Of a stretch of 39,805 nucleotides of DNA, positions 8,389 through 39,805 are shown one piece after another; position 1 is the first letter of the stretch, and every line of letters begins with the position of its first letter. The stretch is from Bordetella parapertussis. GTDB lineage: Bacteria; Pseudomonadota; Gammaproteobacteria; Burkholderiales; Burkholderiaceae_C. The notes below the pieces were generated by a model, which did no database searches, was not told where the DNA came from, and saw only the letters and a list, made by a program, of their open reading frames with translations. The DNA is taken from contig CAMDAN010000010.1 in the NCBI GenBank assembly GCA_945888535.1, positions 1 through 39,805 on the forward strand, given 5' to 3'. Made by a program: the position numbers and the translations under genes.

Positions 8389-9966
8389 TCACTTGGGCAA
8401 CATGCCCTCACGCGCCAAACGCACAGGGAAATCGGCCCTGAGTTGGGCGTCCATTTCAGGGGAAATATGTGAAGGGTAGTGGCTGTCTAAGATGAATTGC
8501 AGCTTTTTCGACGCTGTTTCAATCAAGCTAGGGCGGCCTTGCTCGACCCATTGGTTGGGGCTGGAGCGGTTGGCGATTTGGGGGTAGAGGTAGTCTTTTT
8601 GCATGAGCTGCAAAGTTTGCGGTGCGCCAAGATAGTGACCCGGGCCGGTGAGGCAGACGTCGCGAATGGTATCAAGCGACAGGGTTTCGTCGTTGACCTC
8701 AATGCCACGAATCGTGCGCTGGACTGCGCCAATGATATCGTTGTCAATGAGCAAACTTTCCAGAGAAAAACCGAGCAAACTAGCCAACATACCTGCTGAT
8801 TCATAAATCAGATTGGCACCCGCGTTACCAACGAGCGCGTGGTTGTAGGCCTTCTCGAAACCAGCTTGGCCATCGGGCATTTTGGAGTCGCTCATGCCAG
8901 AGGCAGTCGCTCCGGTTAAGTCGTAAAAGCGTGACATTTGGGCGCTGGCTGCGGACAAGAGCGCTTGCTCGGGGCTGCCGCCTGACATGGCGCCGGTGCG
9001 TAAGTCAGAGACAAAACACCAGGTACCAAACATGGCAGGGGCTTTGGGTTTGATGGCGTTCACGTACACCAAACCTGCCAAACACTCTGCAGTTTCTTGA
9101 ACCAGCGCGGTCGCTAACGAAGCGGGTGCGGTGGCACCGGCTTGGCCAGCAGACAAAAGCAGCACGGGCATACCGCCGCGTACCGCAACCTCTAAACACT
9201 TGCAGGCGTCGTAGGCAAACTTCATGGGCGGCACGACAAAGCAGTTGGACTGGCTAACAAACGGACGCGCACGCCATTTGTCTTCGCCTCCGGCAATCAC
9301 GTGGAGCATTTTGAGCGTTTCTTCTAAATGCTCGGGCGAAACCCAGCTTGCGCCAACGTGTTTGGTAGTTCCTGAAACACACGCGTAGGTGGTGTTGAAA
9401 TCCATCTCGCGGGGAATATCGAGGTCACGGCAGACTACGGAGCGTTGGAAGAAGTGGATGTGCTCCAGGGTATCGACCACGCGGGCGATGTTGTAGAGGT
9501 CTTGGGTGGTGGAGTCGCGGTATTCGCCGGTCTGGGCATTCACCATGCTCACCGCAGCGCCTGCCGTTCCGAAGTAAACGTTCGATCCCCACGGCTCCAT
9601 GTCATGCTTGGGGTCTTGGCCGTGCAATACAAAATTGCGCGCTGCGTTGGCAACCGTATCTTCAATGAGAGCGCGAGGAAAAATCAAACGCCCGGTGTCG
9701 GTCAATTTGGCGCCTGCTTTGGTCATGAGCTCGATGCCGCTTTCAGGCGCATCGGCCAAGCCAATGTGCTCTAAGGCATCTAAAGCGGCGTTATGAATTT
9801 TAAGAACATCAGCGTCGCTCAAGGGCTTGTAAGCGCCGCCGCGCATGCCAGGGCGAACTGGGCGCAAGCTGTCAGGCAGTGGCGCAGAGCGGGCGGCCCG
9901 ACGTGCATCACGTGCACCGCCACGGGGTGAAGATTTAGTCGTTGGTTCAATCATTGTTTCGCTCAT
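8389..9966 (-). CDS. MttB-superfamily (trimethylamine methyltransferase-like) protein, non-pyrrolysine
   Basis: Protein of 525 residues with the whole-length pattern of the trimethylamine methyltransferase (MttB) superfamily, including a GTAGAAVSMVNAQTGEYR segment and an intact C-terminal barrel part. The frame has no internal amber codon, so it is a non-Pyl member. Characterised non-Pyl members demethylate glycine betaine, carnitine or related quaternary amines and pass the methyl group to a corrinoid protein. No corrinoid-protein gene is present here. It lies 36 bp behind the FAD/GcvT-domain gene on the same strand, so the two are probably one operon. This points to methylated-glycine use; the substrate and methyl acceptor are unknown. 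Confidence 0.88.
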   Translation of the reverse strand: MSETMIEPTTKSSPRGGARDARRAARSAPLPDSLRPVRPGMRGGAYKPLSDADVLKIHNAALDALEHIGLADAPESGIELMTKAGAKLTDTGRLIFPRALIEDTVANAARNFVLHGQDPKHDMEPWGSNVYFGTAGAAVSMVNAQTGEYRDSTTQDLYNIARVVDTLEHIHFFQRSVVCRDLDIPREMDFNTTYACVSGTTKHVGASWVSPEHLEETLKMLHVIAGGEDKWRARPFVSQSNCFVVPPMKFAYDACKCLEVAVRGGMPVLLLSAGQAGATAPASLATALVQETAECLAGLVYVNAIKPKAPAMFGTWCFVSDLRTGAMSGGSPEQALLSAASAQMSRFYDLTGATASGMSDSKMPDGQAGFEKAYNHALVGNAGANLIYESAGMLASLLGFSLESLLIDNDIIGAVQRTIRGIEVNDETLSLDTIRDVCLTGPGHYLGAPQTLQLMQKDYLYPQIANRSSPNQWVEQGRPSLIETASKKLQFILDSHYPSHISPEMDAQLRADFPVRLAREGMLPK

Positions 9967-10002
9967 GGTATTGCCTTATGAAAAAAGGATGAATCGTTCT
10001 GC

Positions 10003-12429: not shown

Positions 12430-12572
12430 GTCTGTCTCCGTTGACTTGAGGAAGAGGCAAACGGGCTTTAACGCGCCGCTTGCCGCTTATTTTTTTGGAT
12501 TGTAAGCACAAATCTAAAATTCTTTGATAAATTTTTACATTAGAATAATTTTTGGCTTATTTTTTACTTTTC

Positions 12573-12577
12573 GGAGG
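12573..12577 (+). promoter_or_regulatory. Ribosome binding site deciding the start at 12582
   Basis: GGAGG lies 4 bases before the ATG at 12582 and supports that start over the in-frame TTG at 12552. The 152-bp region 12430-12581 between the divergent dehydrogenase genes is AT-rich and must hold both promoters; I saw no certain operator or riboswitch in it. Confidence 0.75.
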
Positions 12578-12581
12578 TCGT

Positions 12582-26179: not shown

Positions 26180-28081
26180 ATGGCAATCTTAGACATTAAA
26201 GTCCCCGATATTGGCGATTTTTCAGAAGTGACCGTGATTGAATTGATGGTCAAAGTAGGCGACACCATTCGCCAAGAACAAAGCCTTATCACGGTGGAGT
26301 CCGACAAAGCGTCGATGGAAATTCCATCGTCACACGCGGGCGTGGTGAAGGAGTTGAAGATCAAGCTGGGCGATAAGGTCAAAGAAGGCTCCGTTGTGTT
26401 GGTGCTGGAAGGCGAGGGCGCTGATGCTCCGGCCGCTTCAGTTTCGGCAACTGCTGCACCTGTTGCTCCTGTGGCAGTAGCAGCTGCAACCTCAGCTACG
26501 GCGCCTGCAACAGCCTCACCCACAGCTGCTAGTTTCAGCGGCTCTGCCGACATCGAGTGCGATGTGCTCGTGTTGGGCGGTGGCCCTGGCGGTTACTCAG
26601 CAGCGTTCCGCGCGGCTGACCTCGGCTTGAACGTTGTCATCGTTGAGCGCTACGCCACTTTGGGCGGCGTGTGTTTGAACGTGGGTTGCATTCCATCCAA
26701 AGCTTTGCTGCACGTCGCAGCCGTCATGGACGAAGTCAACCACATGGCTGACCTCGGTGTGGACTTCGGCAAGCCGGTGGTCAACATCGACAAGCTGCGC
26801 GGCCACAAAGAAAAAGTCATTGGCAAACTCACAGGCGGCTTGGCTGCCATGGCCAAGATGCGCAAGGTCACCACCGTGCGCGGCTTGGGTCAATTTGTGG
26901 GGGCCAACCACCTCGAAGTGTTGGAAACCAGCGGTACTGCTCAAGAGCAAAACGGCAGCAAAAAAGTGATCGCCTTCAAGAAGGCCATCATCGCTGCAGG
27001 CTCGCAAGCTGTTCGCTTGCCTTTCATGCAGAAGGATGGGCTAGATAAGGATCCACGCGTCGTCGACAGCACTGGAGCTTTGGAACTCAAAGAAGTACCC
27101 AAGCGCATGCTGATTCTGGGCGGCGGCATCATCGGCCTGGAAATGGGCACGGTTTACAGCACGCTGGGCGCACGCCTGGACGTGGTGGAAATGATGGACG
27201 GTCTCATGCAAGGCGCTGACCGCGACTTGGTCAAAGTCTGGCAAAAGATGAACGCCAAGCGCTTTGACAACATCATGCTCAAGACCAAGACCGTGTCCGC
27301 ACGCGCCTTGCCTGAAGGCATTGAAGTCACGTTCGAGAGCGCTGAACCCGGTGGCACAGCCCCCGCGCCGCAGGTGTACGACTTGGTCTTGCAAGCCGTG
27401 GGCCGCACGCCCAACGGCAAAAAACTCGCCGCTGAAAAGGCGGGCGTCGCTGTGACCGATCGTGGCTTCATCAACGTCGACATTCAAATGCGCACCAACG
27501 TGCCGCACATCTTCGCCATTGGCGACATCGTGGGCCAGCCCATGTTGGCGCACAAAGCGGTGCACGAAGCCCACGTGGCGGCTGAAGTGATTGCGGGCGA
27601 ACTGATGCAAGGCAACGAAGAGTTGGCCCAACAACTCAGGTCCTCGGCGTTCAACGCACGCGTCATCCCAAGCGTGGCCTACACCGACCCCGAAGTGGCC
27701 TGGGTGGGCCTCACCGAAGACCAGGCCAAAGCGCAAGGCATCAAAGTGAAAAAGGGCTTGTTCCCTTGGACCGCCTCGGGCCGCGCCATTGCCAACGGCC
27801 GCGACGAAGGCGTGACCAAACTGCTGTTTGATGACAGCCCCGAAGGTGGCTCAGAGGTCGGCCATGCTGGCCGGGGCCACGGCAAGATCTTGGGCGGCGG
27901 CATGGTGGGCACGCACGCGGGCGACATGATTGGCGAGATCGCTCTGGCGATTGAGATGGGCGCAGACGCTGTGGACATCGGCAAAACCATCCACCCCCAC
28001 CCCACGCTGGGTGAAAGCATCGGCATGGCGGCGGAAGTGGCGCACGGTAGCTGCACGGACTTGCCGACTAGCAAGAAGTAA
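26180..28081 (+). CDS. lpdA: Dihydrolipoamide dehydrogenase (E3) with N-terminal lipoyl domain
   Basis: Protein of 633 residues. Residues 1-80 are a lipoyl domain almost identical to that of AceF (Lys43 in ESDKASME), followed by an Ala-rich linker to about 120. The rest is the FAD/NAD disulfide reductase: [19 protein letters not shown], redox cysteines near residues 164 and 169 in [25 protein letters not shown] for NAD, the FAD-binding FAIGDIVG, and the C-terminal HPHPTLGE with the catalytic His and Glu. E3 reoxidises the lipoyl groups. The lipoyl-E3 fusion is known in beta-proteobacteria. The 3' half seems richer in G/C-ending codons than aceE/aceF, and two partial copies of its 3' end lie downstream. 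Confidence 0.96.
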
Positions 28082-28100
28082 ACGCTCCGCGCTGTAAATA

Positions 28101-28160: not shown

Positions 28161-29351
28161 TCAGTGTTTATTATTTTTTGCGTGTGCAATAGCCTCATTC
28201 AAACCTTGCTTGATGCTGCCAAATGCATCAACCGTCGTTGGTCGAATTTCATAACTCGTACTCCGTCCACTCGCCTCAGACCGCATCAACATACCGCGCT
28301 CTAGCAGCTCGTTGATATCGCGCAGTGCAGTGTCTTGCGAACATTTGGCAATCGCTGCCCACTTGCTGGTGGTGAGCTTGCCGTCAAAGCCATCAAGCAG
28401 TTTGTTGAGCAGTTTGATTTGTCGCTCGTTCATGGGTGTGTCGGCCCATTGCCGCCAGACGTTGGCTTTGCTCAGCACCGCTGACAGCGTGCCTTGTGCG
28501 CCTTGCACGGCGCGCAGCAGGCAACCCAAAAACCACTCTAGCCAATCGGTCACGTCCAGCGTGCCTTTTTGGGTGCGTTCGAGTTGGTCGTAATAGTCTT
28601 TGCGCTCGCGCTGGAATTGCGCCGACAGGCTGTAGTAGCGCTGCGCTGTGGCTTCAGCGCGGGCCAGTGCCAAGTCGCCCACGGCACGGCCCATGCGGCC
28701 ATTGCCATCGTCCATCGGGTGCACCGTCACAAACCACAAGTGGGCTAGGCCAGCTTTGATCAGCGGGTCGTCTTGGCTGGCGGTGTTGAACCAATTTAGG
28801 AACAGCGCCATTTCAGCGTTTAGCGTATTCGCAGGGGGGGCTTGGTAGTGCACGCGTGGGCGGTGCAGCGGGCCAGACACCACTTGCATGGGGCCTTGTG
28901 CGTCGTTGCGCCACTCACCAACGCGGATGGGTGTCATGCCGCTATAGCCAGTGGGGAAGAGGGCGGCGTGCCAGCCGCACAGGCGCTGCACGGTCAGCGC
29001 TTGGTCGTGCTGTTGGGTGGCGTCTAGCACCATGTCCACCACACCGTCTACATGGCGGTCGGTGGGTGCCAGTGCGCCAATGTCCACGCCTAAGCGGCGG
29101 GCGATGGACGAGCGCACCGACTCGGGGTTGAGCATTTCGCCCTCGATCTCGCTGGTTTTGATCACGTCTTCGGTCAGCACGCGCAGGGTGGCTTGGTCGC
29201 GCTGCTCTAGGCCAATGTCGTGCATGCGGCCCAGCAGCAGGCCTTGTGCGTGGTGCACTTGCGCCAGTAGTGGGGCCAAATGCGTGTTCGCGTAGGTCCA
29301 CTTGGGCCAAGTGTCTTGCTGCCAGATATAAAGTTTATCGCCGCTATTCAT
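28161..29351 (-). CDS. Fic-family AMP-transferase, class II, with DUF4172 and C-terminal HTH
   Basis: Protein of 396 residues from ATG 29351; the longer frame reads backwards through a lpdA scrap and is rejected. The order is an N-terminal DUF4172 domain (YIWQQDTWPKW), an inhibitory helix with TSEIEG at residues 66-71 (Glu70), the Fic core with HPMDDGNGRMGR at 211-222, and a winged-helix-like C-terminus (KWAAIAKCSQDTALRDINELLERG). Fic enzymes usually transfer AMP from ATP to a hydroxyl side chain on a target. The Glu of the inhibitory motif would block ATP binding in cis (class II). The canonical Phe of HPFxxGNGR is Met here. Repeats just upstream of the start suggest autoregulation. Target unknown. 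Confidence 0.9.
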   Translation of the reverse strand: MNSGDKLYIWQQDTWPKWTYANTHLAPLLAQVHHAQGLLLGRMHDIGLEQRDQATLRVLTEDVIKTSEIEGEMLNPESVRSSIARRLGVDIGALAPTDRHVDGVVDMVLDATQQHDQALTVQRLCGWHAALFPTGYSGMTPIRVGEWRNDAQGPMQVVSGPLHRPRVHYQAPPANTLNAEMALFLNWFNTASQDDPLIKAGLAHLWFVTVHPMDDGNGRMGRAVGDLALARAEATAQRYYSLSAQFQRERKDYYDQLERTQKGTLDVTDWLEWFLGCLLRAVQGAQGTLSAVLSKANVWRQWADTPMNERQIKLLNKLLDGFDGKLTTSKWAAIAKCSQDTALRDINELLERGMLMRSEASGRSTSYEIRPTTVDAFGSIKQGLNEAIAHAKNNKH

Positions 29352-29435
29352 GCGGTGATTATGCGGTGAATGCGCCTCATGCGCAAGATATTCGGCGCAT
29401 ATTTTGCGGTGATTGTGTGGTTTTATCACCGCAAA
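29351..29435. promoter_or_regulatory. Repeats in the fic promoter region (putative operator)
   Basis: TGCGGTGA occurs at 29351-29358 and 29363-29370, and again within TTTGCGGTGAT (29403-29413). The latter forms a perfect 11-bp inverted repeat with ATCACCGCAAA (29425-29435), with an 11-nt spacer. All lie just upstream of the fic start on the minus strand. The C-terminal HTH of the Fic protein is a candidate binder. Confidence 0.5.
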
Positions 29436-29436
29436 G

Positions 29437-29488
29437 GCATGGTGGCGTAGGTGGCGCACGGTAGCTGCACGGACTTGCCGCCTAGCAA
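29437..29488 (+). repeat. Duplicated scrap of the lpdA 3' end (copy 2)
   Basis: 52 bp correspond to lpdA 28023-28074. The last 38 bp (29451-29488) differ at a single base, while the first 14 have 3 mismatches. The copy has no open lpdA frame around it. With the genuine lpdA end it brackets the 1.4-kb fic unit as a direct repeat. Confidence 0.85.
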
Positions 29489-29490
29489 AC

Positions 29491-29767
29491 ATGCGGCAGT
29501 TTTACGAGGTTTACCCCGACCCGCCTGATTACAAGAAGGTGCGCAACTACTGGAAGTGGCTGAAGAACTAATTGATCGCCGAAAGCAGTCAGTTGGTTAG
29601 TGCCACTAACCAACTGAAATTGTCAGCGAGCGGTGGTAGGAAGTATTTAGATGACCACCAAAGAGTTGGTAATAAGCATGCTGGCCGAGACGGGAAAAAA
29701 GCTTATGAGCCCGCAGAGCGCCAAGCAGTTGCGGTTGCTGGAGCAGGCGAAAAGCGAGAGGGGATAG
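29491..29767 (+). pseudogene. Broken phage-type gene, possibly BRO-N-like
   Basis: ATG 29491 opens a 26-codon frame ending in TAA at 29569-29571. The same frame continues after the stop with similar composition (GSQLVSATNQLKL-type sequence, read as SSQLVSATNQLKL), and a shifted frame from 29651 to 29767 encodes 38 residues (MTTKELVISMLAE...). Together DYKKVRNYWKWLKN and the following SQLVSATNQLKL resemble the N-terminal region of BRO/antirepressor-type phage proteins. The likeness is from memory of the family pattern and is tentative. At least one stop and one frameshift make it a remnant. No other gene is visible in 29489-29814. Confidence 0.4.
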
Positions 29768-29814
29768 CAACGGCTGACCGTATTGCTAATCAATGCGCCC
29801 CGGGGTAACACCCC

Positions 29815-31071
29815 TCAGCCCGCTAGGCCACGCGCTATGTCGTGAATGTGCCGGGTTGGGAGCAGCCACAAATCCAGTGGCATGCCCCCCGTGCCAATGA
29901 CCAGCGGCTGTGCCTGTGGGAACTGCTGCACAAATGCGGTCAGGCCCGATACATTGCCCACGTTGTGGCCGCTTTTCACTTCCAGTGCGTGCAGTGTTTG
30001 GCCGTCGCGCAGCACGTAGTCCACTTCTTTTTGGCCGTTGTTCCAGTAGTGAATGAGGGGGTGGCGGCTGCTGTGCGTCAAGTGCCGGGCCAGCAGCTCG
30101 GTGCCCACGGCGCTCTCGGCCAGGCGGCCCCATACATCGGGGCGCGCTTGCGCAGCTTGCAGTCCCACACCTTGCGCGACCCAGTGGCAGCCCATCAGGG
30201 CGTTGTTGAACACTTGCAGCTTGGGGCTGGATGCCCGCTGGCGCACCACTTGGCCCATGTATTTGGGCAGGCCGCAGGCCATGCCTGCCCCTTCGAGCAG
30301 GTCGAGGTAGTGGGCGAGGGTGGTGGTGTTGCCCGCATCGTCGAGCTGGCCCAGCATCTTTTGGTAGCTGAGGATCTGACCGCTGTACGCGCAGGCGAGG
30401 TCAAACACGCGGCGCAACAGCGCGGGCTTTTGCACGGGGGCCATCAGCAGCACGTCTTTGCTGATGGTGGTTTCGATCAAAGCGTCGCTCACGTAGGCGG
30501 CCCAGCGGGTTTCATCGTGCACCAAGGGGGCTGCGCCGGGGTAGCCACCATAAAAGATGAACTGCTCCAGGCTAAAGCCAAAGGCGTCGCGCATTTCGGC
30601 GTAGCGCCAGTGGCCCAGGCGAGTGATCTCAAACCGCCCAGCCATGCTTTCGCTCAAGCCCCGTGCGATCAGCAATGGCGCAGAGCCGAGGATGACCACA
30701 CGTACATCGCGACCCGTGGCGGTGTCTTCGTCCCACAGGCGTTTGACTTCTTCGGTCCAATTGGACACTTTTTGGATCTCGTCCAGCACCAGCACGCAGC
30801 TGCCCGCTTGGGCCGCGAGCGCTCGGGCCACCTGCCATTGGGTGCCCAGCCAGACTTGGCCTTGCAGACCGGGGCCATCGGCACTGGCGCTGTGCTGGGC
30901 TTTGGGGCTGGTGCTTGGCTGGTCTTGAGCGTCCCGTTGCAAGCGCTCCAGCGCCTGGCGCACCAGTGTGGTTTTGCCCACTTGGCGTGGGCCAGCGACC
31001 ACCTGTAAAAACAGACGCGGCTCTTTGAGCCGGGCAACCAGAGGGGCAAGTGCTTCGCGTTCGATGGTCAT
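29815..31071 (-). CDS. AAA_14/DUF4143-family ATPase
   Basis: Protein of 418 residues from ATG 31071; a TTG at 31086 is less likely. The AAA domain has Walker A GPRQVGKTT near the N-terminus and Walker B CVLVLDEIQKV. The C-terminal DUF4143 part includes GRLAESAVGTELL, HYWNNGQKEVDYVL and LEVKSG, a PD-(D/E)xK-like strand pattern. This family is widespread and often sits in mobile or defence regions; its function is unproven. The start is preceded by two near-palindromic boxes. It lies between two lpdA scraps, as if imported as a unit. Confidence 0.88.
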   Translation of the reverse strand: MTIEREALAPLVARLKEPRLFLQVVAGPRQVGKTTLVRQALERLQRDAQDQPSTSPKAQHSASADGPGLQGQVWLGTQWQVARALAAQAGSCVLVLDEIQKVSNWTEEVKRLWDEDTATGRDVRVVILGSAPLLIARGLSESMAGRFEITRLGHWRYAEMRDAFGFSLEQFIFYGGYPGAAPLVHDETRWAAYVSDALIETTISKDVLLMAPVQKPALLRRVFDLACAYSGQILSYQKMLGQLDDAGNTTTLAHYLDLLEGAGMACGLPKYMGQVVRQRASSPKLQVFNNALMGCHWVAQGVGLQAAQARPDVWGRLAESAVGTELLARHLTHSSRHPLIHYWNNGQKEVDYVLRDGQTLHALEVKSGHNVGNVSGLTAFVQQFPQAQPLVIGTGGMPLDLWLLPTRHIHDIARGLAG

Positions 31072-31081
31072 TTTTGATTTG

Positions 31082-31118
31082 CTCAATGCATTGAGTAATT
31101 TAACTCATTGTATTGAGT
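31082..31118. promoter_or_regulatory. Two palindromic operator-like boxes upstream of the ATPase gene
   Basis: CTCAATGCATTGAG (31082-31095) is a perfect 14-bp palindrome and ACTCATTGTATTGAGT (31103-31118) is a related imperfect one. Their centres are 22 bp apart, two helical turns. They sit 11 bp upstream of the ATPase start, in AT-rich DNA that should contain its promoter. A dimeric repressor site is the likely meaning; the binder is unknown. Confidence 0.5.
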
Positions 31119-31195
31119 AAATTAAATTCTGTCAATGCACGCTGGTCAATGCGCCTCAAGCTAACAACACTAAACCCACTCATGATCTGAAGAGC

Positions 31196-31378
31196 TGGCA
31201 AAAAATGAACGCCAAACGCTTTGACTTGCAGCTGATCGCTCTGGCGATTGAGATGAGCGCAGACGCTGTGGACATCGGCAAAACCATCCACCCCCACCCC
31301 ACGCTGGGCGAGAGCATCGGCATGGCGGCAGAAGTGGCGCATGGCAGCTGCACGGACTTGCCGCCCGCGAAGAAGTAA
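31196..31378 (+). pseudogene. Internally deleted lpdA remnant (copy 3)
   Basis: An open 61-codon stretch joins two pieces of lpdA in frame. The first encodes [10 protein letters not shown] (lpdA 27239-27268). After two or three unrelated codons the second encodes IALAIEM through the last residues and TAA (lpdA 27938-28081). About 665 bp between them are missing. Several synonymous and a few non-synonymous differences from lpdA (for example PPAKK versus PTSKK at the end) show it is a different allele and not a recent copy. There is no start codon or ribosome site. The surrounding 31119-31461 hold no other gene. Confidence 0.85.
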
Positions 31379-31461
31379 AATCAGAAGCTGCTGAATTGAC
31401 TATAAATTCAGCTGCTCAGTTGGCATGCGTCAAGAACGTTAATGGAAGTTGGCCTGGACTT

Positions 31462-31902
31462 TCAAATTCCGAGCCCTAAACTTTTATATGAGTCTTTTTC
31501 CAAATCCCGCTGCAACCCGATCCAAGCTTGGTCAAAACTGAGTTTTTTGGATAAAGGAGTTCCTGGCTCCACGACTCGCCAAAACGGTGGCAAATCGACC
31601 AGCGGGACATTTCTCTCGTTGTGTTCCTCCCAAGCGTACTCGGCCACAATTCTCAAGAACAGGGATGTCGACACGGGGCACGCGGCATCACAGGCTTGTG
31701 CTTGGGCAATTATTTTTCTAAATTGCTGAAGGGATACCGTTTCGCCTGGCCGAATTTTTTTGAGCTGATCGGCAATCTCTTGCGGACTAGAGATGTGCAG
31801 TTTTGAGCCGCTTTTCACGCCCGCGAAGTCTTTTTCAAGAACGACATGGTGCGGTGGCTTGGCCGCCATTTTTTCTTTCCAAGTTTTTTTGGATCTTGGC
31901 AT
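31462..31902 (-). CDS. MGMT-like DNA-binding-domain protein
   Basis: Protein of 146 residues from ATG 31902 (MPRSKKTWKEK); the frame's earlier start adds 15 residues without similarity. The start KTWKEK and the middle part (LKKIRPGETVSLQQFRKII, then ACPVSTSLFLRIVAEYA, then PPFWRVVEPG) fit a family of small proteins related to the DNA-binding domain of O6-alkylguanine-DNA alkyltransferases. The catalytic PCHR motif is absent, so it should not be an alkyltransferase. DNA-lesion recognition is possible but unproven. It lies alone between the lpdA remnant and a decayed gene. Confidence 0.5.
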   Translation of the reverse strand: MPRSKKTWKEKMAAKPPHHVVLEKDFAGVKSGSKLHISSPQEIADQLKKIRPGETVSLQQFRKIIAQAQACDAACPVSTSLFLRIVAEYAWEEHNERNVPLVDLPPFWRVVEPGTPLSKKLSFDQAWIGLQRDLEKDSYKSLGLGI

Positions 31903-32033
31903 GGTGAATGCACATGTGGTTGTGATGGCTTGATTTTCGTTGCCCAATGGGTTGGTGCAAATAATGCTGGGGTAAACCCCGTGTTATGTGGGGATTGGTG
32001 ATTCCCCCCGATGGATTGACCAACCTGTTTACA

Positions 32034-32363
32034 TAAAGCACATCGGCACAGCCTAAAATGAAAGGGTACTCGGTGCGCGGATCGCCGTGAATCGACGCGG
32101 TAAACACATCGCTGCGCTCGTAAAAGTAAGTCTGTGTGCCATTGCCGTGGTGGTAGTCCACATCCAGCACGGCAACGCGTTCTAGCCCGCCGCCAAGGGT
32201 GTGCCAGAGTCAAACGCATATTGCCCAAGCCGTGCCGCGATGCCAAAGGCCACACCGAGGGCATGGCGTCCAACACATGTTGCAAGCGCTCAGGCACCTC
32301 GTGGCAATCGACCAAGCGGCCATGGAACATTTCTTGGCGGCATAAGTGGCGAATCGGTTTCAC
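32034..32363 (-). pseudogene. Decayed histone-deacetylase-family (acetylpolyamine amidohydrolase-like) gene
   Basis: Two frames carry pieces of one HDAC-superfamily protein. From 32363 the N-terminal piece reads HGRLVDCHEVPERLQHVLDAM, as in class II deacetylase-like proteins. A large internal part is missing. After a frame change near 32200 the catalytic region appears as LDVDYHHGNGTQ, then DVFTASIHGDPRTEYPF, and then dissolves. The His-His and Asp of the zinc site are in DVDYHHGNGTQ. The deletion and the frameshift make it non-functional. A few short GC hairpins lie between it and the MGMT-like gene. Confidence 0.75.
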
Positions 32364-32477
32364 CCGCCCATTGGCACTGATGCGTTTCTAGGCCACGGGT
32401 TAACCCCTAAATATCTTTTAACACTATTTAACTATTTAGCAAGCGCTTGTAGTTTATAAGAGTATTATTAAAATACG

Positions 32478-32507
32478 TTAAGTTGCTTTAAGTTAAGTTA
32501 AGTTAAG
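32478..32507 (+). repeat. TTAAG tandem repeats upstream of the binding-protein cluster
   Basis: TTAAG occurs four times in tandem at 32488-32507 and once more at 32478-32482, followed by a T run and TATAGA (32519-32524), a possible -10 element. This AT-rich 190-bp region (32391-32577) is the only room for the promoter of the four-gene cluster. No convincing -35 is seen. Confidence 0.5.
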
Positions 32508-32577
32508 TTTTTTTAGACTATAGAAAATTTCATCATTGAATGACTATTCCAATGTCCTTCTAAGTGAAAGATAAACA

Positions 32578-33870
32578 ATGTTTTCATCTCTCCGCTACCC
32601 CCAACAAAGCCGCCGATTGCGGATGGGCGTTGTTTGGGCGTTGGGTTTGTTTGCGTTGCTGTCGTTGCGATGTGTTCAAGCCCAAGGCGAAACGCTAACG
32701 CTCGAAACCTGGCGCGGCGACGATACGTCGCATTGGATTAATGAAATACTCCCCGCTTTCAACCGCACACACCCCAATATTAAAGTCAGGATAACTCCAA
32801 CCGTACCAACTCGCTATGACAAAGTCCTAGAGCAGAAGTTGGCAACCGGTAAGGCCGGCGATCTGATTACCTGTAGGCCGTTTGACCAGTCACTTGACCT
32901 GTACAACAAGGGCTACCTTCAAGACATCACCGAGATGCCCGAGTTACTTAAATTTCGTAACAACGGGAAAGTCGCTTGGACTACTTATTTCGCAGACCGT
33001 GAGTTTTGTATGCCTATGGCTGCGGTTATGACGGGGTTTTTCTACAACACAACCCTCTTCAAAGAACTCAACTTGAGCCCACCCCGAACTGAAGAAGAGT
33101 TTTTTAAGGTGCTTGAGAAAATTAAAGCATCAGGCAAATATGTCCCCTTGGCCTTTGGCACCAAAGATTCATGGCAGTCCGCGCAGGTGTTGTTTGCTGC
33201 CATAGGGCCCAATTATTGGAGCGGCGAACAAGGGCGTATCAATCTATTAACCGGACGCGCCAAATTTACAGATTCGCCTTACGTTGAGGTATGGAGAATG
33301 CTCGACAAGATCGACAACTATTTTCCGGACAACCATAGGAAGGTGGGCGAAAAAGAAGCGCGCGATTTATTTCTTCAAGGCAAAGCAGCGATTTACCCTG
33401 CGGGCTCATGGGAGATTCCGTTTTTGTCTGAATCGAGCATTGCGAAAAACATTGCTGTATTTGCCTCGCCACCTAAACAAGACCAAAACAACTGCTACGT
33501 ACTGAACCATTTAGACATTGGGGTCGGAATTAACGCTAAAAGTGCCCACTCTAAAGCTGCCAGTGATTTTTTAGTATGGCTCAGCACGCCCGATTTTTCT
33601 CAAACCTTGGTCAATAGCCTCCCCGGATTTTTCCCACTCTCTAACCACCCAGTTGAAGTTAGCAATCCGCTGGCCAAAGAAATGCTGTCTTGGCGCAAGC
33701 AATGCGACACCACGATACGTATCAACAGTCAATTTTTAAATCAAGCATGGCCAGGCTTAGAGCAAGAGTTATGGAGACTCAGCGCACAAGTCATGCGGCA
33801 TGAAATTTCACCCGAAGAAGCTGCAAAACAAATTTCCAATGGAGTCGAAAAATGGTTCAAACCCTTTTGA
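32578..33870 (+). CDS. Periplasmic extracellular solute-binding protein, family 1 (MalE-type)
   Basis: Protein of 430 residues with an N-terminal signal (hydrophobic VVWALGLFALLSL, cleavage after VQA). The mature part has the family-1 layout: LTLETWRGDD, FNRTHPNIKVRIT, KLATGKAGDLI, YLQDITE, an MTGFFYNTTLFKE hinge and AIYPAGSWEIP. Such proteins bind oligosaccharides or related solutes and deliver them to an ABC importer. Here no permease or ATPase gene follows. It overlaps the protease gene by 19 bp, so translation is coupled. Possible roles are binding for a distant transporter or sensing. The ligand is not predictable. Confidence 0.88.
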   Translation: MFSSLRYPQQSRRLRMGVVWALGLFALLSLRCVQAQGETLTLETWRGDDTSHWINEILPAFNRTHPNIKVRITPTVPTRYDKVLEQKLATGKAGDLITCRPFDQSLDLYNKGYLQDITEMPELLKFRNNGKVAWTTYFADREFCMPMAAVMTGFFYNTTLFKELNLSPPRTEEEFFKVLEKIKASGKYVPLAFGTKDSWQSAQVLFAAIGPNYWSGEQGRINLLTGRAKFTDSPYVEVWRMLDKIDNYFPDNHRKVGEKEARDLFLQGKAAIYPAGSWEIPFLSESSIAKNIAVFASPPKQDQNNCYVLNHLDIGVGINAKSAHSKAASDFLVWLSTPDFSQTLVNSLPGFFPLSNHPVEVSNPLAKEMLSWRKQCDTTIRINSQFLNQAWPGLEQELWRLSAQVMRHEISPEEAAKQISNGVEKWFKPF

Positions 33871-34994
33871 GCTTTATCGTGCATTTGAACTTGCGTCGAT
33901 CGATCGCTCACGGCCTTCTTAGTTTGCTTTGGGGCCTAGGAATAACTCTAACGCTGTGCCTAGACGTACATGCAAGCACAACACCGTGGTACATAGAACC
34001 TAGCGGACCCGACACATCACCCGCCTCAATACAAAGCGCTCCGATCAAACCAGGCGCAAACACTATTGTTGTCGCCGTGATCGATAGTGGAGTCATCGCC
34101 GAACATCCTGCGCTTGAGGGTGTGCTGCTTCCTGGCTTTGATATGGTGGCAGCGCAGCGCAACATAAGAGGAACGAGATCTTCGAACTTCGCGCCCGACC
34201 CAAGAGATGCCACGTGCGGCCAAAGACTTGTCTCGTCCTCATTTCGCACGCATGGCACGGAAGTGGCAAGTCTCATTGCGGGGAATGGGTACGAAAACAT
34301 GTGGGGCGTTAACCCCCGTGCGCGAATTGTCCCTATACGCATCTTTTGCACATGCGGCATGTTGCCTGAAGACATGATCGATGCGATTCGTTGGGCTGCT
34401 GGCTTAAAAGTCGAAGGTACGCCCAATAACCAACATCCGGCCCATGTGATCAACATCAGCATTGCCGGCGGCGTCGCCCAATGCAGACCCGAGCTTCAAA
34501 GAGCCATCAACGCCGCCCGTAAAAATGGTACGTTTGTGGTTGCTGCCGCAGGAAACAACTTTCAGAAACCGCTTGCAGAACCCGCAAACTGTGAGGGTGT
34601 GATCTCAGTGGGCGCACTTTCTGCAGAAAACAAGATTGAAAACTACTCGGCCTTGGACTCCCGCACCACCATTTACACCGCCGGCGGTGGCCCCGCACTC
34701 CGCATGAGTCAAGCATGGGCACATAACAAACTCAGAGTTGCCACAGCCGAACTAAGCGTGTCTGGCAACGAGAGACTCATCGTGATGGATAAAGGCATAG
34801 GAACCAGTTTTGCGGCACCTGTGGTATCTGGTTTTTTGTCACTCTTGCTCTCCTTCAACCCCAACCTCAAACCCCAAGACTGGGACGCTTATGTTGATTC
34901 CTTTGTCAGGCAGGTTCCCCGCTTGGAAAAGTGTGTCGATTGCAATCCGCGTGGGCTCGTTGCTTCAGGCATCTTGACAAAATTTTCAAAATGA
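33852..34994 (+). CDS. Secreted subtilisin-like (S8) serine protease
   Basis: Protein of 380 residues with an N-terminal hydrophobic signal (about residues 19-41). The S8 catalytic triad is complete: Asp78 in VAVIDSGV, His134 in RTHGTEVAS and Ser319 in GTSFAAPVVSGF. The oxyanion Asn235 is in AAAGNN. A Cys pair around FCTCG and others suggest disulfides. There is no large propeptide or C-terminal domain, so it is a compact periplasmic or secreted form. Its start lies inside the upstream binding-protein gene (19-bp overlap) and its stop overlaps the next start as ATGA. The protease is thus produced together with two binding proteins, an unusual combination. Confidence 0.92.
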   Translation: MVQTLLSFIVHLNLRRSIAHGLLSLLWGLGITLTLCLDVHASTTPWYIEPSGPDTSPASIQSAPIKPGANTIVVAVIDSGVIAEHPALEGVLLPGFDMVAAQRNIRGTRSSNFAPDPRDATCGQRLVSSSFRTHGTEVASLIAGNGYENMWGVNPRARIVPIRIFCTCGMLPEDMIDAIRWAAGLKVEGTPNNQHPAHVINISIAGGVAQCRPELQRAINAARKNGTFVVAAAGNNFQKPLAEPANCEGVISVGALSAENKIENYSALDSRTTIYTAGGGPALRMSQAWAHNKLRVATAELSVSGNERLIVMDKGIGTSFAAPVVSGFLSLLLSFNPNLKPQDWDAYVDSFVRQVPRLEKCVDCNPRGLVASGILTKFSK

Positions 34995-35470
34995 GAAGTA
35001 CCACTTATTCAAATCGCCGCCTGATAGTTTTGTTATCCATGGTGCTGCTCACGCTACAAAACGCATGGGCCGACTCTGTGGTTTGGTCTTGCTCGCGTTC
35101 GGAGCCCAAGCAAACTGTCTTTGAAGGAATTCGAGCGTTTCGTCTTGAGAAAATTTCTGTAAAAGACAATGACACTATTTCTATTACCTTGATGGATCTG
35201 TATGCGGCATACGGTGGCGAGATTATTCAACTCGGGAAATCTTCGCTTGCCGTTTGCAGCCTCCCACCGAACGACCCATTCCAACTTGCCGCTATGGAAT
35301 TACTAGGATACACAGCCAAAGACTTGATCCAAGCGTCAAAACGTCCTAAGTCTTCTTTGATTCTGATTCCCTCGATCAATGAAATGCACAAGTGTCTAAG
35401 CGAAAACCACCCAGCCATCGGCTTCTTCAAAAACGTCGTGGAAAACGAACGGATTGCGCCGTGTTTTTAA
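34991..35470 (+). CDS. Small secreted protein of unknown function, protease-coupled
   Basis: Protein of 159 residues from ATG 34991, overlapping the protease stop by 4 bp (ATGA); a longer frame start is rejected. A signal peptide is clear (LIVLLSMVLLTLQNAWA, cleaved before DS). The mature protein has four cysteines (in VWSCSRS, AVCSL, HKCLS and near the C-terminus in APCF), which could form two disulfides. I recognise no domain. It may be a substrate, chaperone, inhibitor or adaptor of the protease upstream; that is inferred from coupling only. The DppA-type gene follows after 28 bp. Confidence 0.7.
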   Translation: MRSTTYSNRRLIVLLSMVLLTLQNAWADSVVWSCSRSEPKQTVFEGIRAFRLEKISVKDNDTISITLMDLYAAYGGEIIQLGKSSLAVCSLPPNDPFQLAAMELLGYTAKDLIQASKRPKSSLILIPSINEMHKCLSENHPAIGFFKNVVENERIAPCF

Positions 35471-35498
35471 CTGTCTGCAAGATGCTTAGGAGTTTCAA

Positions 35499-37124
35499 AT
35501 GAAAAAACAAGCTTCATGGCGAGTCTTCACTCAGGTCCTAGTGATGGGGTGTGTCGGGCTGAGCCCATTGTTTGCGCATGCAAAAGATACACCGCACAAG
35601 CTTGTCTTTTGCTCGGAGGGAAATCCCGAATCACTCGTACCTTACAGCTCCAGCACAACGTCTGTCGGTGTTTACGTTGCGTTGAACGACACCCTCATCT
35701 CGCATGTTCGCGGCGAGACCGATATCACCCCCAGCTTGGCCGTGCACTGGCAAATTTCCAGAGATGGCAAGGAATACACCTTCTTTTTGCGCCGAGGGGT
35801 CAAATGGCATAGGAATGCATTTTTTGAGCCAACACGCGATTTCAATGCAGACGATGTCATTTTCACCATTGAGCGACAGCGCGATATAAATCATCCCTAC
35901 CATGCCGTATCCGATTTTAATTATTCCTATTTCAAAGCGGCAGGCTTTGGCGCACTGCTTAAGAGCATCAAGAAATTAGACAACTACACGATCAAATTCA
36001 CCCTCAATCAAGCCAACGCTGCTTTTTTGACCATGCTGACGCTTCCGTTTACAGGCATGCAGAGCCATGATTACGCGATGGCCATGCTTAAACGTGGAAC
36101 GCCTGAAATTTTCGATGCCAACCCGATTGGCGTTGGGCCATTCTCTTTTGAAAGTTTCGAAAAAAATCAACGCGTTGTTTTCAAATCCTTCCCCGATTAC
36201 TGGCGTGGAAAAGCCAAGATTGACGTGCTTGAATTTTCGATCACACCCAACGCCTCTGATCGATGGAAAAAACTCCAAGACAACATGTGCCAGGTGATGC
36301 TTTTCCCTAATCCCGCTGACTTAGCGCAAATGCGTAAACACCCTGATACGACTGTTTTGGAACAAGCCGGACTCAATGTCGGCTTCTTGGCTTACAACAC
36401 CTCCAAACCCCCCTTTAATGATGTGCGCGTTCGCAAGGCCCTTAATATGGCCATTAACAAGGCAGCGATTGTGGAACGCGTCTTCCAAGGCATAGGCGTT
36501 GCTGCGGTCAATCTCATCCCGCCTACGATGTGGTCTTACAACAAAGAAGTGAAAGACGATGTATTTGACCCTGTTGCAGCAAAGCAATTACTCAAAGAAG
36601 CGGGATTGCCTAACGGCTTTTCGACCGATCTCTGGGTCATGACAGTCGCAGGTCCAACCAACCCCAATCCAGAATTGACGGGGCAAATGATTCAGACTGA
36701 TTTAGCTGCGATTGGCGTCAAAGCGGAGATCAAAAACCCTGAATGGACTGAATATGCGAACCGCATGGCGCATGGCGAACACGCCATGGGCTTGTACGGA
36801 TGGACAACCGGACAAGGTGATCCTGATGCTTTCTTTTATGGGCTTTTGAGCTGCGAAGTTGCCCAGTCAAATGGACCGAATATGGCTAAGTTTTGCTACC
36901 AGCCCTACGATGATCTCGTTCGCAAAGCCCGAGCTGTGGCAGACCCAATGCTTCGAATACCCCTTTATGAGAAAGCCCAGCAGATTTTCAAAGAACAAGC
37001 ACCGTGGATGACCATCGCCCACGTCAAGCAAATAGTCGTCATCAGAAACGAGGTCGAAAATTTCCGATTAAGCCCATTTGGAGCTGTCCGATTTTATGGA
37101 GCCGAATTAAAAGACCGCCCTTAG
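35499..37124 (+). CDS. Periplasmic solute-binding protein, family 5 (DppA/OppA-type)
   Basis: Protein of 541 residues with a signal peptide (cleavage after FAHA) and a strong AGGAG ribosome site. Family-5 signatures are visible: LVFCSEGNPESLVPY, ITPSLAVHWQISRDGKEYTFFLRRGVKWH, FNADDVIFTIER, YTIKFTLNQANAAFL, NPIGVGPFSFESF and VRKALNMAINKAAIV. This family binds peptides, nickel, heme or other cargo for Dpp/Opp-type ABC importers. No dppBCDF genes follow. Next to a secreted protease, peptide capture is an attractive role, but the ligand is not proven. Confidence 0.92.
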   Translation: MKKQASWRVFTQVLVMGCVGLSPLFAHAKDTPHKLVFCSEGNPESLVPYSSSTTSVGVYVALNDTLISHVRGETDITPSLAVHWQISRDGKEYTFFLRRGVKWHRNAFFEPTRDFNADDVIFTIERQRDINHPYHAVSDFNYSYFKAAGFGALLKSIKKLDNYTIKFTLNQANAAFLTMLTLPFTGMQSHDYAMAMLKRGTPEIFDANPIGVGPFSFESFEKNQRVVFKSFPDYWRGKAKIDVLEFSITPNASDRWKKLQDNMCQVMLFPNPADLAQMRKHPDTTVLEQAGLNVGFLAYNTSKPPFNDVRVRKALNMAINKAAIVERVFQGIGVAAVNLIPPTMWSYNKEVKDDVFDPVAAKQLLKEAGLPNGFSTDLWVMTVAGPTNPNPELTGQMIQTDLAAIGVKAEIKNPEWTEYANRMAHGEHAMGLYGWTTGQGDPDAFFYGLLSCEVAQSNGPNMAKFCYQPYDDLVRKARAVADPMLRIPLYEKAQQIFKEQAPWMTIAHVKQIVVIRNEVENFRLSPFGAVRFYGAELKDRP

Positions 37125-37167
37125 TTGTGGGCCGCGCCATCTCAAACAGCGTTGTTTAGGTTTCGCT

Positions 37168-38181
37168 TCAGGCACCCGGAGGCATCACATCGTTCCCCAA
37201 CATCCTTTGCCACAGCCACTTCAAGCTTGCCCCCACATCCATGCTGCGGGCTAGTTGCTGGGCAGGCCCATGGGCTTGACCTTCTTCAAGCGACGGGCCG
37301 ATGTCAAAGGTAAATACATAAGCCGGCTCTTGTCCCATGCGCAGGTCGGTCACGACCAAGTGGCTGTTATCGGCCTCGATTTTGAAGAAGCCATCGGTAA
37401 ACCGCGCCAGACGTTGGAGCTGCGGGTGCTTGTCGTTTTGTGCCGCCAAAGTACCGCCTCGCGCATAGGCCACAAAGCGCACGGCTCTTTCGCCATCCAA
37501 GAACGAATAAAAGCCCTCGTGGAAACGTTCGCCGTCGAGCGCTACCACGCGCCACAACACGGTGTTAAGCGGCGCAGGGGTGACCAACAACTGCTGGCTG
37601 GGAAGCCCTTGCGCTTGCAAAGACGCGCGGGCGTGCTGCGTTACCCAAGCTTGCCCTAGGGCGCTCCATACCAAATAAGCGATGCTGAAGGCCAGCGCCC
37701 AGCCATTGATGGCTAAGGCCCTTCCTGTGGTTTTGACGCGCAGCGCCGCCACTACGCCTGCAAGCAAGGGCAGCGAATAAATCGGGTCGACGATGAACAT
37801 GCTGCCTAGGCCATAGGCTTCGTCGCTGAAAGGCTGAAACACCTGGGTGCCGTAAATGGTCATCAGGTCGAGCAAGGGGTGCGTAACCAGCGCCAGCATC
37901 AGAGCCCACCACCAGCGGCCATACAGCTGCGGCTGCCGATGGACACGACTCACCACCCAGGCCATGGGAAACGCAAAAAGCGTCAGCAACAGCAAAGCGT
38001 GCGATTCCGCGCGGTGTCGGATCATGTTCAGGATCGGATCACCGTGGTCTATCAGCACATCCAGATCAGGCAACAGACCCGCCACGCCGCCCCACAAGGC
38101 CGATTTCCAAAGCGCTGTTCGCCGCCCCATAACAGCGACGCCAACCGAGGCACCTAAAAGGATTTGTGTGACGGAATCCAT
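37168..38181 (-). CDS. Membrane-bound metal-dependent hydrolase, YdjM/LexA-binding-type
   Basis: Protein of 337 residues from ATG 38181 (MDSVTQILLGA); a longer frame adds 37 unrelated residues. The N-terminal half has several hydrophobic helices and the family's polar sites: GLLPDLDVLID, HRAESHALL and THPLLDLMTIYGT, where His and Asp residues would hold a metal. The C-terminal half is soluble. The family (DUF457/YdjM-like) is annotated as inner-membrane metal-dependent hydrolase; its substrate is unknown. It is convergent with the DppA-type gene, 43 bp apart. Confidence 0.85.
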   Translation of the reverse strand: MDSVTQILLGASVGVAVMGRRTALWKSALWGGVAGLLPDLDVLIDHGDPILNMIRHRAESHALLLLTLFAFPMAWVVSRVHRQPQLYGRWWWALMLALVTHPLLDLMTIYGTQVFQPFSDEAYGLGSMFIVDPIYSLPLLAGVVAALRVKTTGRALAINGWALAFSIAYLVWSALGQAWVTQHARASLQAQGLPSQQLLVTPAPLNTVLWRVVALDGERFHEGFYSFLDGERAVRFVAYARGGTLAAQNDKHPQLQRLARFTDGFFKIEADNSHLVVTDLRMGQEPAYVFTFDIGPSLEEGQAHGPAQQLARSMDVGASLKWLWQRMLGNDVMPPGA

Positions 38182-38360
38182 GGGTTGGCTCTGCGCTCCA
38201 ATGTTAAAAACAAATAGGTTAACGGCTTGAGCATGCCCTGTGTGCCAGTCATGCGCCAAAGCCCTACGTGCGCGAGGCGTTTCGAAAATCACTGAAGTGC
38301 GATATCTTCGCCTACGGCTTTGCGCGTCTAAGCCTACGCGGCTCGATAGGATGATAAATT

Positions 38361-39056
38361 ATGAAATACACATTGCTTGGCCTCTTGCTATTCACTAGCG
38401 TCACACGCGCTCAAGTGGATGACAAAGTGGCCTTACCCAACTTTGCGATTGACCGAATCGAAGTCACGATCGGGCAGTTTGAGCGCTACGTGCGTGCCAC
38501 GGGCACCATCACGCGGGCTGAAAAAGAGGGCGGTGGTTTTGAATACGTCGCGGGTTGGGAGCGTCGGCCCGGTTGGTCCTGGCGAAAGCCCGATGGCCAG
38601 ACAACCAGCGCCGACATCCCCGCAGTGCATTTGGATTTTGCAGAAGCGCAAGCGTATTGCCGTTGGGCGGGTGGCCGTTTGCCCACGGGGGCAGAGTGGC
38701 AAATGGCAGGCTTTACCGAACTGCGCGAGTCGCCTCCAGCGCCTTGGCAGAAGGGCCGAACTTATCCATGGGCTACGGGCGAAAGCCCGCAAGGAGCCAA
38801 CACAAGTGACGCTGATCCATGGCCCCGAGCCGCGACTGCGGGGGCCACCAAGCAAGGTGTAAATGGCTTGTATGACATGGGGGCCAATGTGTGGGAATGG
38901 GCCACCGACAGCCCCGACGGTAAGGGCCGCGAGCGGCGCACAGTTGGCGGCTCTTGGTGGTACGGCGCGTTCAACATGAAGGCTGATGTGCAGGCTTTTA
39001 AACCGGCAGATTTCTATGCGGTATATATCGGGTTTCGGTGTGTTTACGAGCGCTGA
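38361..39056 (+). CDS. Secreted SUMF1/FGE-sulfatase-fold protein
   Basis: Protein of 231 residues with an N-terminal signal (LLGLLLFTSVTRAQ). The SUMF1 fold is clear: FAIDRIEVTIGQFERYV, PAVHLDFAEAQAYCRWAGGRLPTGAEWQMA, YPWATGE, GLYDMGANVWEWATD, GGSWWYG and the final IGFRCVYER. The cysteine pair of formylglycine-generating enzymes, normally in a CxxxxC loop shortly before the GFRC end, is not there, so sulfatase activation is unlikely. Other members of the fold modify ergothioneine precursors or bind carbohydrates. Its role is open. No sulfatase is nearby. Confidence 0.88.
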   Translation: MKYTLLGLLLFTSVTRAQVDDKVALPNFAIDRIEVTIGQFERYVRATGTITRAEKEGGGFEYVAGWERRPGWSWRKPDGQTTSADIPAVHLDFAEAQAYCRWAGGRLPTGAEWQMAGFTELRESPPAPWQKGRTYPWATGESPQGANTSDADPWPRAATAGATKQGVNGLYDMGANVWEWATDSPDGKGRERRTVGGSWWYGAFNMKADVQAFKPADFYAVYIGFRCVYER

Positions 39057-39187: not shown

Positions 39188-39256
39188 ACCAGCTGATTTG
39201 ACGGAAATAATAAGTGCGCACATAATATGTGTAAAATTTACTTTCTGGAGCTCATA

Positions 39257-39481
39257 ATGAATATCACTCTTTCAGTTGACGAAAAAGTCGCTCAACGCGC
39301 CCGCGAGGCCGCTCAAAAAATGGGAAAAAGCCTGAATCAGGCGGTGCGTGATTATTTGGAGCAACTGGCGGGAAGTTCGCGCCGGGGCCAAGAATGGGCC
39401 CAATTTGAATCGCGTTGCCTCCAGTCTCCTGCGCAACTCGGCGGATGGAAATTCAATCGCGAAGAGGCCAACGTGCGTTGA
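39257..39481 (+). CDS. VapB-type ribbon-helix-helix antitoxin
   Basis: Protein of 74 residues from ATG 39257 with a CTGGAG ribosome site. The N-terminus MNITLSVDEKVAQRAREAA, then MGKSLNQAVRDYLEQL is a ribbon-helix-helix DNA-binding unit. The C-terminal tail (WKFNREEANVR) would wrap the toxin. The PIN-domain toxin follows after 4 bp. Such pairs repress their own promoter; an AT-rich stretch at 39205-39240 is the probable operator area. Confidence 0.82.
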   Translation: MNITLSVDEKVAQRAREAAQKMGKSLNQAVRDYLEQLAGSSRRGQEWAQFESRCLQSPAQLGGWKFNREEANVR

Positions 39482-39485
39482 CACG

Positions 39486-39805
39486 ATGACAGATCGTAGC
39501 TTTATCGATACCAACGTGCTCGTCTATGCAGAGGCCAGCGACGCGCCTGACAAGCAGCAAGCCGCGTTGGCCCTGCTCAAACAGCTTTATGAGACCGGTA
39601 CAGGCGTGCTGTCAACCCAAGTTTTGCAAGAGTATTGCAATGTTGCCATCAAAAAACTCAAACTTCCAGTAGCGCACATCCGAGCTCAACTTGATATGTA
39701 CGAGCAGTTTGAAGTCGTTCAGATCACCCCTGCCATCATTCGCGCAGGGCTTGACTTGAACCAAACCCGCAGCGTCGGGTTTTACGATGCGCTCATCATC
39801 GCGAG
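39486..39805 (+). CDS. VapC-type PIN-domain toxin, partial (runs off right edge)
   Basis: ATG 39486 opens a frame with no stop to the window end (106 codons visible). The start MTDRSFIDTNVLVYAEA contains the first PIN-domain Asp (DTNVLVY). STQVLQEYCNV carries the conserved Glu, and SVGFYDALIIA near the edge holds the next Asp. PIN toxins are Mg-dependent ribonucleases that cleave tRNA or rRNA. It is 4 bp behind the RHH antitoxin gene, confirming a VapBC-like pair. The last 20-30 residues are outside the window. Confidence 0.88.
   Translation, partial: MTDRSFIDTNVLVYAEASDAPDKQQAALALLKQLYETGTGVLSTQVLQEYCNVAIKKLKLPVAHIRAQLDMYEQFEVVQITPAIIRAGLDLNQTRSVGFYDALIIA

Follow-up and report, generated by a model that had tools for sequence, protein, structure and literature searches.

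Why should two solute-binding proteins (SBPs) of different families flank a secreted protease with no transporter gene beside them? The question is raised by four genes in a 39,805-nucleotide stretch assigned to Bordetella parapertussis (contig CAMDAN010000010.1; this whole stretch is 'the window' below). Open reading frame (ORF) analysis places them on the + strand at 32578-37124 in the order SBP1-S8-SM-SBP5, encoding an SBP_bac_1 protein, a subtilase, a small cysteine-bearing protein and an SBP_bac_5 protein. A first-pass annotation had suggested that they may form a periplasmic sensing or peptide-processing device, with a protease that frees or trims a ligand for capture by the binding proteins, or one that is itself under their control. 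We find the cassette to be real, recurring and unusual, and tentatively read it as a mobile, transporter-free envelope module, an S8-SM core plus two SBPs that would tune proteolysis or report to a sensor elsewhere. New here are the match of the SM model to lobe 2 of PstS-type proteins, with four invariant cysteines, and the anchor loss in the SBP5 clade. Within the open-licence literature, no title or abstract start was found that describes the cassette or SM; papers are cited below by PMC number.

Recurrence of the gene set

The ORF coordinates agree with the annotated arrangement of four co-oriented genes: SBP1 and S8 overlap by 19 bp (33852-33870), S8 and SM by the 4 bp of an ATGA (34991-34994), and SM and SBP5 are 28 bp apart (35471-35498). 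All four proteins have a hydrophobic N-terminal stretch (17-residue Kyte-Doolittle maxima of 1.8-2.0, starting at residues 9-21) which, read by eye, is signal-like and in keeping with the annotated signal sequences as putative Sec signals. Family searches bear out that the binding proteins belong to different families, and no ATP-binding cassette (ABC) permease or ATPase was found among the genes searched at 28161-39056, nor among those searched further upstream, a subset of the ORFs. On the genes searched at 28161-39056 the cassette is therefore no ABC importer operon, which would have permease and ATPase genes in the cluster.

A genome-contig scan with the protease, sensitive to close relatives only, returned one other locus, L001, on a metagenome-assembled contig titled Sulfuritalea sp. 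(genome G001). Positions 33392-37189 of the window correspond to 1-3798 of L001 at 97.55% DNA identity, after which the flanks differ. L001 carries all four genes, SBP1 being cut by the contig start so that the upstream side is unseen, and a lack of co-occurrence elsewhere, which would have counted against the first-pass proposal, is thus not borne out. In the genomes profile-searched, the full cassette was found in G001 alone. Apart from the cassette, the last 17.8 kb of the window have only short matches in G001 (up to 729 bp, 67-96% identity); the two cassettes thus resemble each other more closely than the DNA around them does, from which we infer recent transfer. Possibly the G001 contig is misbinned, which would weaken the statement that transfer was between genera, not the change of flanks. 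Between window and L001 the dN/dS ratios are 0.26 for the shared part of SBP1, 0.04 for S8, 0 for SM and 0.12 for SBP5, and by this comparison of sequences the cassette genes are under purifying selection. As dS is 0.14 in SBP5 against 0.02-0.03 in the SBP1 part, S8 and SM, there is a hint that the cassette is mosaic.

Recurrence at greater distance was assessed by comparing protein-database clusters of SBP1, SM and SBP5 relatives (S8 not included) by the exact size and source of their longest contig, an indirect test because that contig belongs to a 90% cluster. All 53 SM rows were entered, with 59 SBP1 rows (P0054-P0112) against 59 controls (P0113-P0171) and 36 SBP5 rows (P0174-P0209) against 36 controls (P0214-P0249). 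After a size check there were seven SM-SBP1, five SM-SBP5 and six SBP1-SBP5 matches, 18 on 14 contigs, whose members are 52-78% identical to the window proteins. No match came from five control pairings in which less similar members of the families were used, and the background from size offsets 1-60 averaged 0.15, 0.09 and 0.13 per offset for the three pairings (maximum 2; 0.37 summed). Contigs of 5,729 and 41,978 bp hold relatives of all three proteins, the former with some 2.3 kb remaining beside them, S8 included. Together with L001 this indicates that the gene set recurs beyond chance, and it is transporter-free where the context is readable.

The proteins of the cassette and their relatives

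S8 belongs to PF00082 (Pfam search, E 2.4e-39). Motifs were located for D78, H134 and S319 and for N235, which from general knowledge of subtilases we take to be the catalytic triad and the oxyanion residue; the triad is thus intact, as annotated, and judged by its motifs S8 is an ordinary subtilase. A second hydrophobic stretch (1.79) lies at residue 319, at the catalytic serine. Pfam found no I9 prodomain in S8, and the approximately 28 residues between presumed signal and catalytic domain could hold a short, unusual one. A tblastn search of plasmids with S8 gave 213 records, all below 60% identity and taken as generic subtilases.

For SM the ORF list gives a GTG start at 34931; the ATGA start at 34991 yields 159 residues, in agreement with its relatives. 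There is no Pfam or NCBIfam match. Described in the first-pass annotation simply as a small cysteine-containing protein, SM has a recognisable predicted fold, which corrects that description: on structure comparison its model matches lobe 2 of PstS-type periplasmic binding proteins, the matches being confined to that one lobe. It differs from the phosphate-binding proteins in its single lobe, its length and its four invariant cysteines (Cys34, 89, 135 and 158). Invariant residues of SM also include W32, D69, L70, M132, P141, G144 and, around Cys158, P157 and F159. With no lobe 1, no two lobes with a closing cleft and no counterpart in the alignment of the phosphate loop of 1twy, the modelled SM cannot close as a Venus flytrap and is not shaped like a ligand-binding SBP. 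We had also considered SM as a YfiR-like inhibitor, prompted by a CHASE8-EAL neighbour and the four cysteines; the structure gave the PstS-type lobe and there was no YfiR among the weak Pfam hits. The family is sparse, being present in 1/399 genomes drawn from the order of G001 and 3/399 from its family (a second family draw, 2/386, appears to be largely the same genomes and adds nothing), in 2/61 genomes of its genus with profile A1 or 6/103 with the wider A2, and in 10/84 of the genus of G574; these genome sets overlap. In viral contigs, ten pattern hits included no confirmed relative.

A survey of 16 genomes with 21 SM copies shows the protease-SM pair to be the more widespread core of the cassette. 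S8 lies directly upstream of SM at 12 loci, the G001 cassette among them, an S8 remnant does so at one (G870), and in three genomes a second SM precedes S8. Two different SM copies surround one protease at L026, L028 and L031. Six SM loci adjoin genes for a response regulator, a LysM-FecR protein and a CHASE2 kinase, with a convergent EAL gene (assigned at L006 and L026 with the help of Pfam domains and at the other regulator loci by similarity). The three-gene operon is complete at four of them (L006, L023, L026, L028) and partial at L030, with a cut kinase fused to an S8 remnant, and at L031, where of the operon only the kinase end lies on the contig. At L030 (9872-10935, G870) a single ORF joins the kinase start to the S8 end, an apparent deletion that has left SM open. 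The same three-gene order is that of the BiofilmReg operon of Burkholderiales, whose fourth genes, in the accessible account, encode DUF4136, an AraC regulator or glutamyl-tRNA reductase, and not S8 or SM (PMC5192318). At five loci the gene after S8-SM shows 28-32% identity to a barrel of G574, whose model of some 16 strands matches the porins OprP and DcaP (predicted local distance difference test score, pLDDT, 65). In G933, genes for TpsA (ESPR, TPS and YDG domains), TpsB (ShlB), S8 and SM are consecutive.

Paralogs of S8 without SM adjoin an EAL gene in L026, L030, L031 and L058. At L056 and L057 (G839 and G950) such a paralog is divergent from an SBP_bac_1 gene, after which come a response regulator and, in G950, a HAMP kinase, the other locus being cut by the contig end; this is a second link between the protease family and an SBP. 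The SM-less paralogs of G933 and G001 have neither kind of neighbour. The linked sensor genes that the first-pass annotation had thought possible thus exist, at six loci and at two with a response regulator, all of distant relatives.

SBP1 falls in PF01547/PF13416. An alignment of 59 rows of the cassette-like clade with 61 less similar relatives (the partial P0107 omitted) has 80 positions conserved in both alike, many of them Trp and Asp, along with positions fixed in the clade specifically, such as R262 and M369. On this conservation SBP1 probably retains ligand binding.

SBP5 has the overall similarity of SBP_bac_5/DppA proteins (PF00496, 326.7 bits), and its best NCBIfam entry, DppA NF043070, scores 591.5 bits, under the 1005-bit equivalog cutoff. 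In Escherichia coli DppA, R383 holds the carboxyl end of the dipeptide and D436 the amino end, double charge reversal there abolishes dipeptide binding and transport, and both residues are also in contact with the scoop loop of DppB (PMC12136057). The equivalent positions, fixed by alignment to PDB chains 8z1y and 8z1z, which differ at both sites, are 385 and 438 in the window protein, and both are Gly, so that SBP5 lacks the DppA anchor. We compared its clade (P0174-P0208 plus the window, 36 rows, defined by similarity) with 82 less similar relatives taken by rank irrespective of gene context (P0213-P0293 plus the G001 DppA-like protein), omitting P0209-P0212. The Asp is kept in 3/36 clade rows against 80/82 comparison rows, the Arg in 34/36 against 82/82; L001 retains the Arg at 385. 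Judged from these alignments the amino anchor has been lost generally, not always. From its sequence we would not count SBP5 among the DppA proteins functional in dipeptide transport. Since the clade mostly lacks the amino-end Asp, and the window copy the Arg as well, simple capture of protease-made dipeptides is disfavoured, which weakens the first-pass idea of a protease-released ligand.

Genomic setting and insertion site

Coordinates are collected in Table 1. Upstream of the cassette lie genes for a 161-residue protein of no family, a histone-deacetylase remnant, an AAA_14/DUF4143 protein and a Fic protein; downstream are YdjM and then a protein with an FGE-sulfatase domain (family searches). 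Neither a two-partner adhesin (genes searched at 28161-39056) nor the BiofilmReg operon was found among the window genes searched.

Table 1. Features of the cassette and its immediate flanks in the window
Feature	Coordinates	Strand	Remarks
SBP1, orphan SBP_bac_1 (MalE/MsmE-type) solute-binding protein	32578..33870	+	430 aa; ORF call, family search
S8, secreted subtilase	33852..34994	+	380 aa; ORF call, family search, triad motifs
SM, exported Cys protein, predicted single PstS-type lobe 2	34991..35470	+	159 aa
SBP5, DppA-like SBP_bac_5 protein	35499..37124	+	541 aa; without both dipeptide-anchor residues
Operon leader, A+T-rich by eye	32392..32577	+	holds AAGCGCTT at 32441-32448
Cassette 3' tail in common with L001	37125..37189	+	DNA identity to L001 stops at 37189
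lpdA 3' end duplicate, upstream of cassette	31234..31379	+	92% of 146 nt

No sigma-70-like site was found on the + strand of the leader, and promoter and terminator scans returned fewer sites than shuffles. The word AAGCGCTT, about 130 bp upstream of SBP1, was tried as a LacI-type operator; it occurs five times in the window against 1.58 expected, a count reached by 3/100 shuffles, and was kept out of the evidence.

In G846 about 1.2 kb with a single ORF separates the genes for lpdA (88%) and the FGE-domain protein (82%), against 10.3 kb in the window, from which we conclude that the cassette sits in an insertion. Repeats of the lpdA 3' end occur in the window at 27937-28082, 29431-29488 and 31234-31379, and on the G001 side at L001 3831-3929, 33 bp past the common cassette end, and L047 8262-8495. 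This suggests that the site downstream of the pyruvate dehydrogenase operon is a hot spot of recombination or integration. The repeats adjoin inserted modules, namely the Fic gene, the AAA_14/DUF4143 gene and the cassette. The histone-deacetylase-family remnant (31835-32390, - strand) is truncated and adjoins the cassette; a 354-residue ORF with a matching stretch lies on the G001 contig. Elsewhere in the window, a trimethylamine methyltransferase-like gene, below the NCBIfam cutoff, adjoins two large genes for FAD/GcvT-domain demethylase-like proteins (8389-15026), and an antitoxin-like short ORF precedes a PIN-like ORF that runs off the end of the window (39227-39803, read from the sequence).

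Possible functions of the cassette

In the reading that we tentatively prefer, the core is a secreted subtilase translationally coupled to SM, which would most likely serve the protease as a docking or restraining partner. The two orphan SBPs that flank it in the window's lineage would bind small molecules, the ligand of SBP5 probably being no ordinary free dipeptide. As ligand-dependent partners they may tune where or when the protease cuts an envelope or surface protein, or else they may signal to a sensor whose gene lies elsewhere. The analysis shows the gene set and its recurrence, the predicted folds, the lost anchor and the regulators beside relatives; that the proteins are exported, form a complex, are gated by ligand and have such a target we infer, and there may be a tie to surface attachment. 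Envelope regulation is favoured over uptake because a binding-protein lobe is coupled to a protease, two receptors lack a transporter, and kin of the pair lie by attachment-type regulators, porins or an adhesin system. Thus the first-pass proposal is partly supported, by the recurring transporter-free set and the sensor genes near distant protease-SM relatives, and its peptide capture is disfavoured. Orphan SBPs have been treated before (PMC8938411), and SBP-activated sensor kinases (PMC11113362) likewise have SBPs in signalling rather than transport; here, in contrast, the unit includes a protease and half an SBP, and the cassette has no kinase gene. A more specific version, which we regard as doubtful, has three binding-protein descendants (sugar-type, ex-dipeptide-type and single lobe) forming a switch around the subtilase, so that small-molecule supply would control proteolysis of a surface or sensor protein, in a cassette moving between genera.

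Several observations weigh against an envelope module of this kind. The window cassette itself contains no sensor kinase, adhesin or porin, and the closest two-component pair found is 10.7 kb off, beyond the pyruvate dehydrogenase operon. The window S8 is on a long branch (1.33) outside the S8 proteins of the regulator-linked loci in the tree, and transfer of functions from those relatives is therefore uncertain. Gene neighbourhood is in any case weak evidence, since adjacent SBP and kinase genes are reported for which no link was detected (PMC11113362). Three SM copies (two in G574, one in G846) lie beside a barrel gene with no S8, and two more (G870, G895) are solitary or border on a contig edge; as no S8 of this kind was found in G574, G846 or G895 (E <= 1e-40; genome completeness not stated), SM is not solely a protease partner. 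Among the nine SBP5 rows tied to SM or SBP1 by a contig match, of 35 database rows in the clade, three keep the Asp (P0188, P0199, P0203); with R383 in 34/36, the clade may bind carboxylate ligands or, in part, dipeptides. Finally, a sixth SM-SBP5 match (P0006-P0190) was dropped because its 1,830 bp cannot hold both full genes, which need 2,106 bp, showing that chance size matches do occur.

The main rival is nutrient scavenging, in which the products that the protease cuts from external protein or glycoprotein are bound by SBP1 and SBP5 and passed to permeases encoded elsewhere, SM being an accessory. It holds this place because G001 has a dpp-like operon and because one lost anchor allows other ligands: in that genome dppB-, C-, D- and F-like ORFs, identified by their sequence and order, precede a second, 54% identical DppA-like gene. 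For the generic families, at least one homologue thus does sit beside ABC transporter genes, an arrangement that the first-pass annotation had named as refuting its proposal if usual. Sharing of one permease by several SBPs is on record (PMC4206461; PMC12728205), and the SBP1 part and SBP5 are under purifying selection. Pseudomonas aeruginosa, with DppA1-A5 for DppBCDF, similarly has SBP_bac_5 proteins beyond one per permease, but these keep a Gly-Asp-Asn peptide motif and serve one permease (PMC12728205), whereas the window protein and most of its clade have lost that motif, and the cassette has a coupled protease but no linked permease. Scavenging is somewhat unlikely, given that the amino anchor is lost in most of the clade and both anchors in the window, at residues that also contact the DppB scoop loop (PMC12136057), that SM lacks the form of a ligand-binding SBP, and that relatives of S8-SM, in the subset of neighbours named, lie by regulators, porins and an adhesin system.

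SM might instead be an in-trans chaperone or inhibitor of S8 and the flanking SBPs hitch-hikers in the island. The order S8-SM in 12/21 copies and the lack of a matched prodomain family in S8 would suit this, but SM in G574, G846 and G895 has no S8 of this kind, and linkage of SBP1, SM and SBP5 at 52-78% identity exceeds what hitch-hiking would lead one to expect; we judge it improbable. Bordetella SphB1, the subtilisin-type protease of FhaB (PMC6070651), invites the idea that S8-SM trims a surface adhesin with the SBPs incidental, the likeness being the subtilase that adjoins a two-partner adhesin in G933. That arrangement is, however, seen at 1/12 S8-SM loci, no adhesin gene is among those searched near the window cassette, and SphB1 is an autotransporter whereas S8 is a 380-residue protein coupled to SM, so adhesin processing is very unlikely. 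Least probable, and already disfavoured, is island debris of no joint function: the flanks do have duplicated lpdA ends and a truncated histone deacetylase, but all four frames are open in the window and, to the contig end, in L001, dN/dS is well below 1 and the set recurs elsewhere.

The cassette is a small, repeatedly occurring example of binding proteins that seem to have been released from transport; for SBP5 the lost peptide anchor supplies a reason at the level of sequence. SM defines a protein family, outside Pfam and NCBIfam, in which one binding-protein lobe with four cysteines is coupled to a protease. If the gating were true, it would be a new way of linking nutrient state to surface proteolysis and, in the more specific version, would connect nutrient sensing with attachment in one step, without kinase or transporter. 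If it is false, the SM family still puts subtilases beside biofilm-type regulators, with a target that can be tested.

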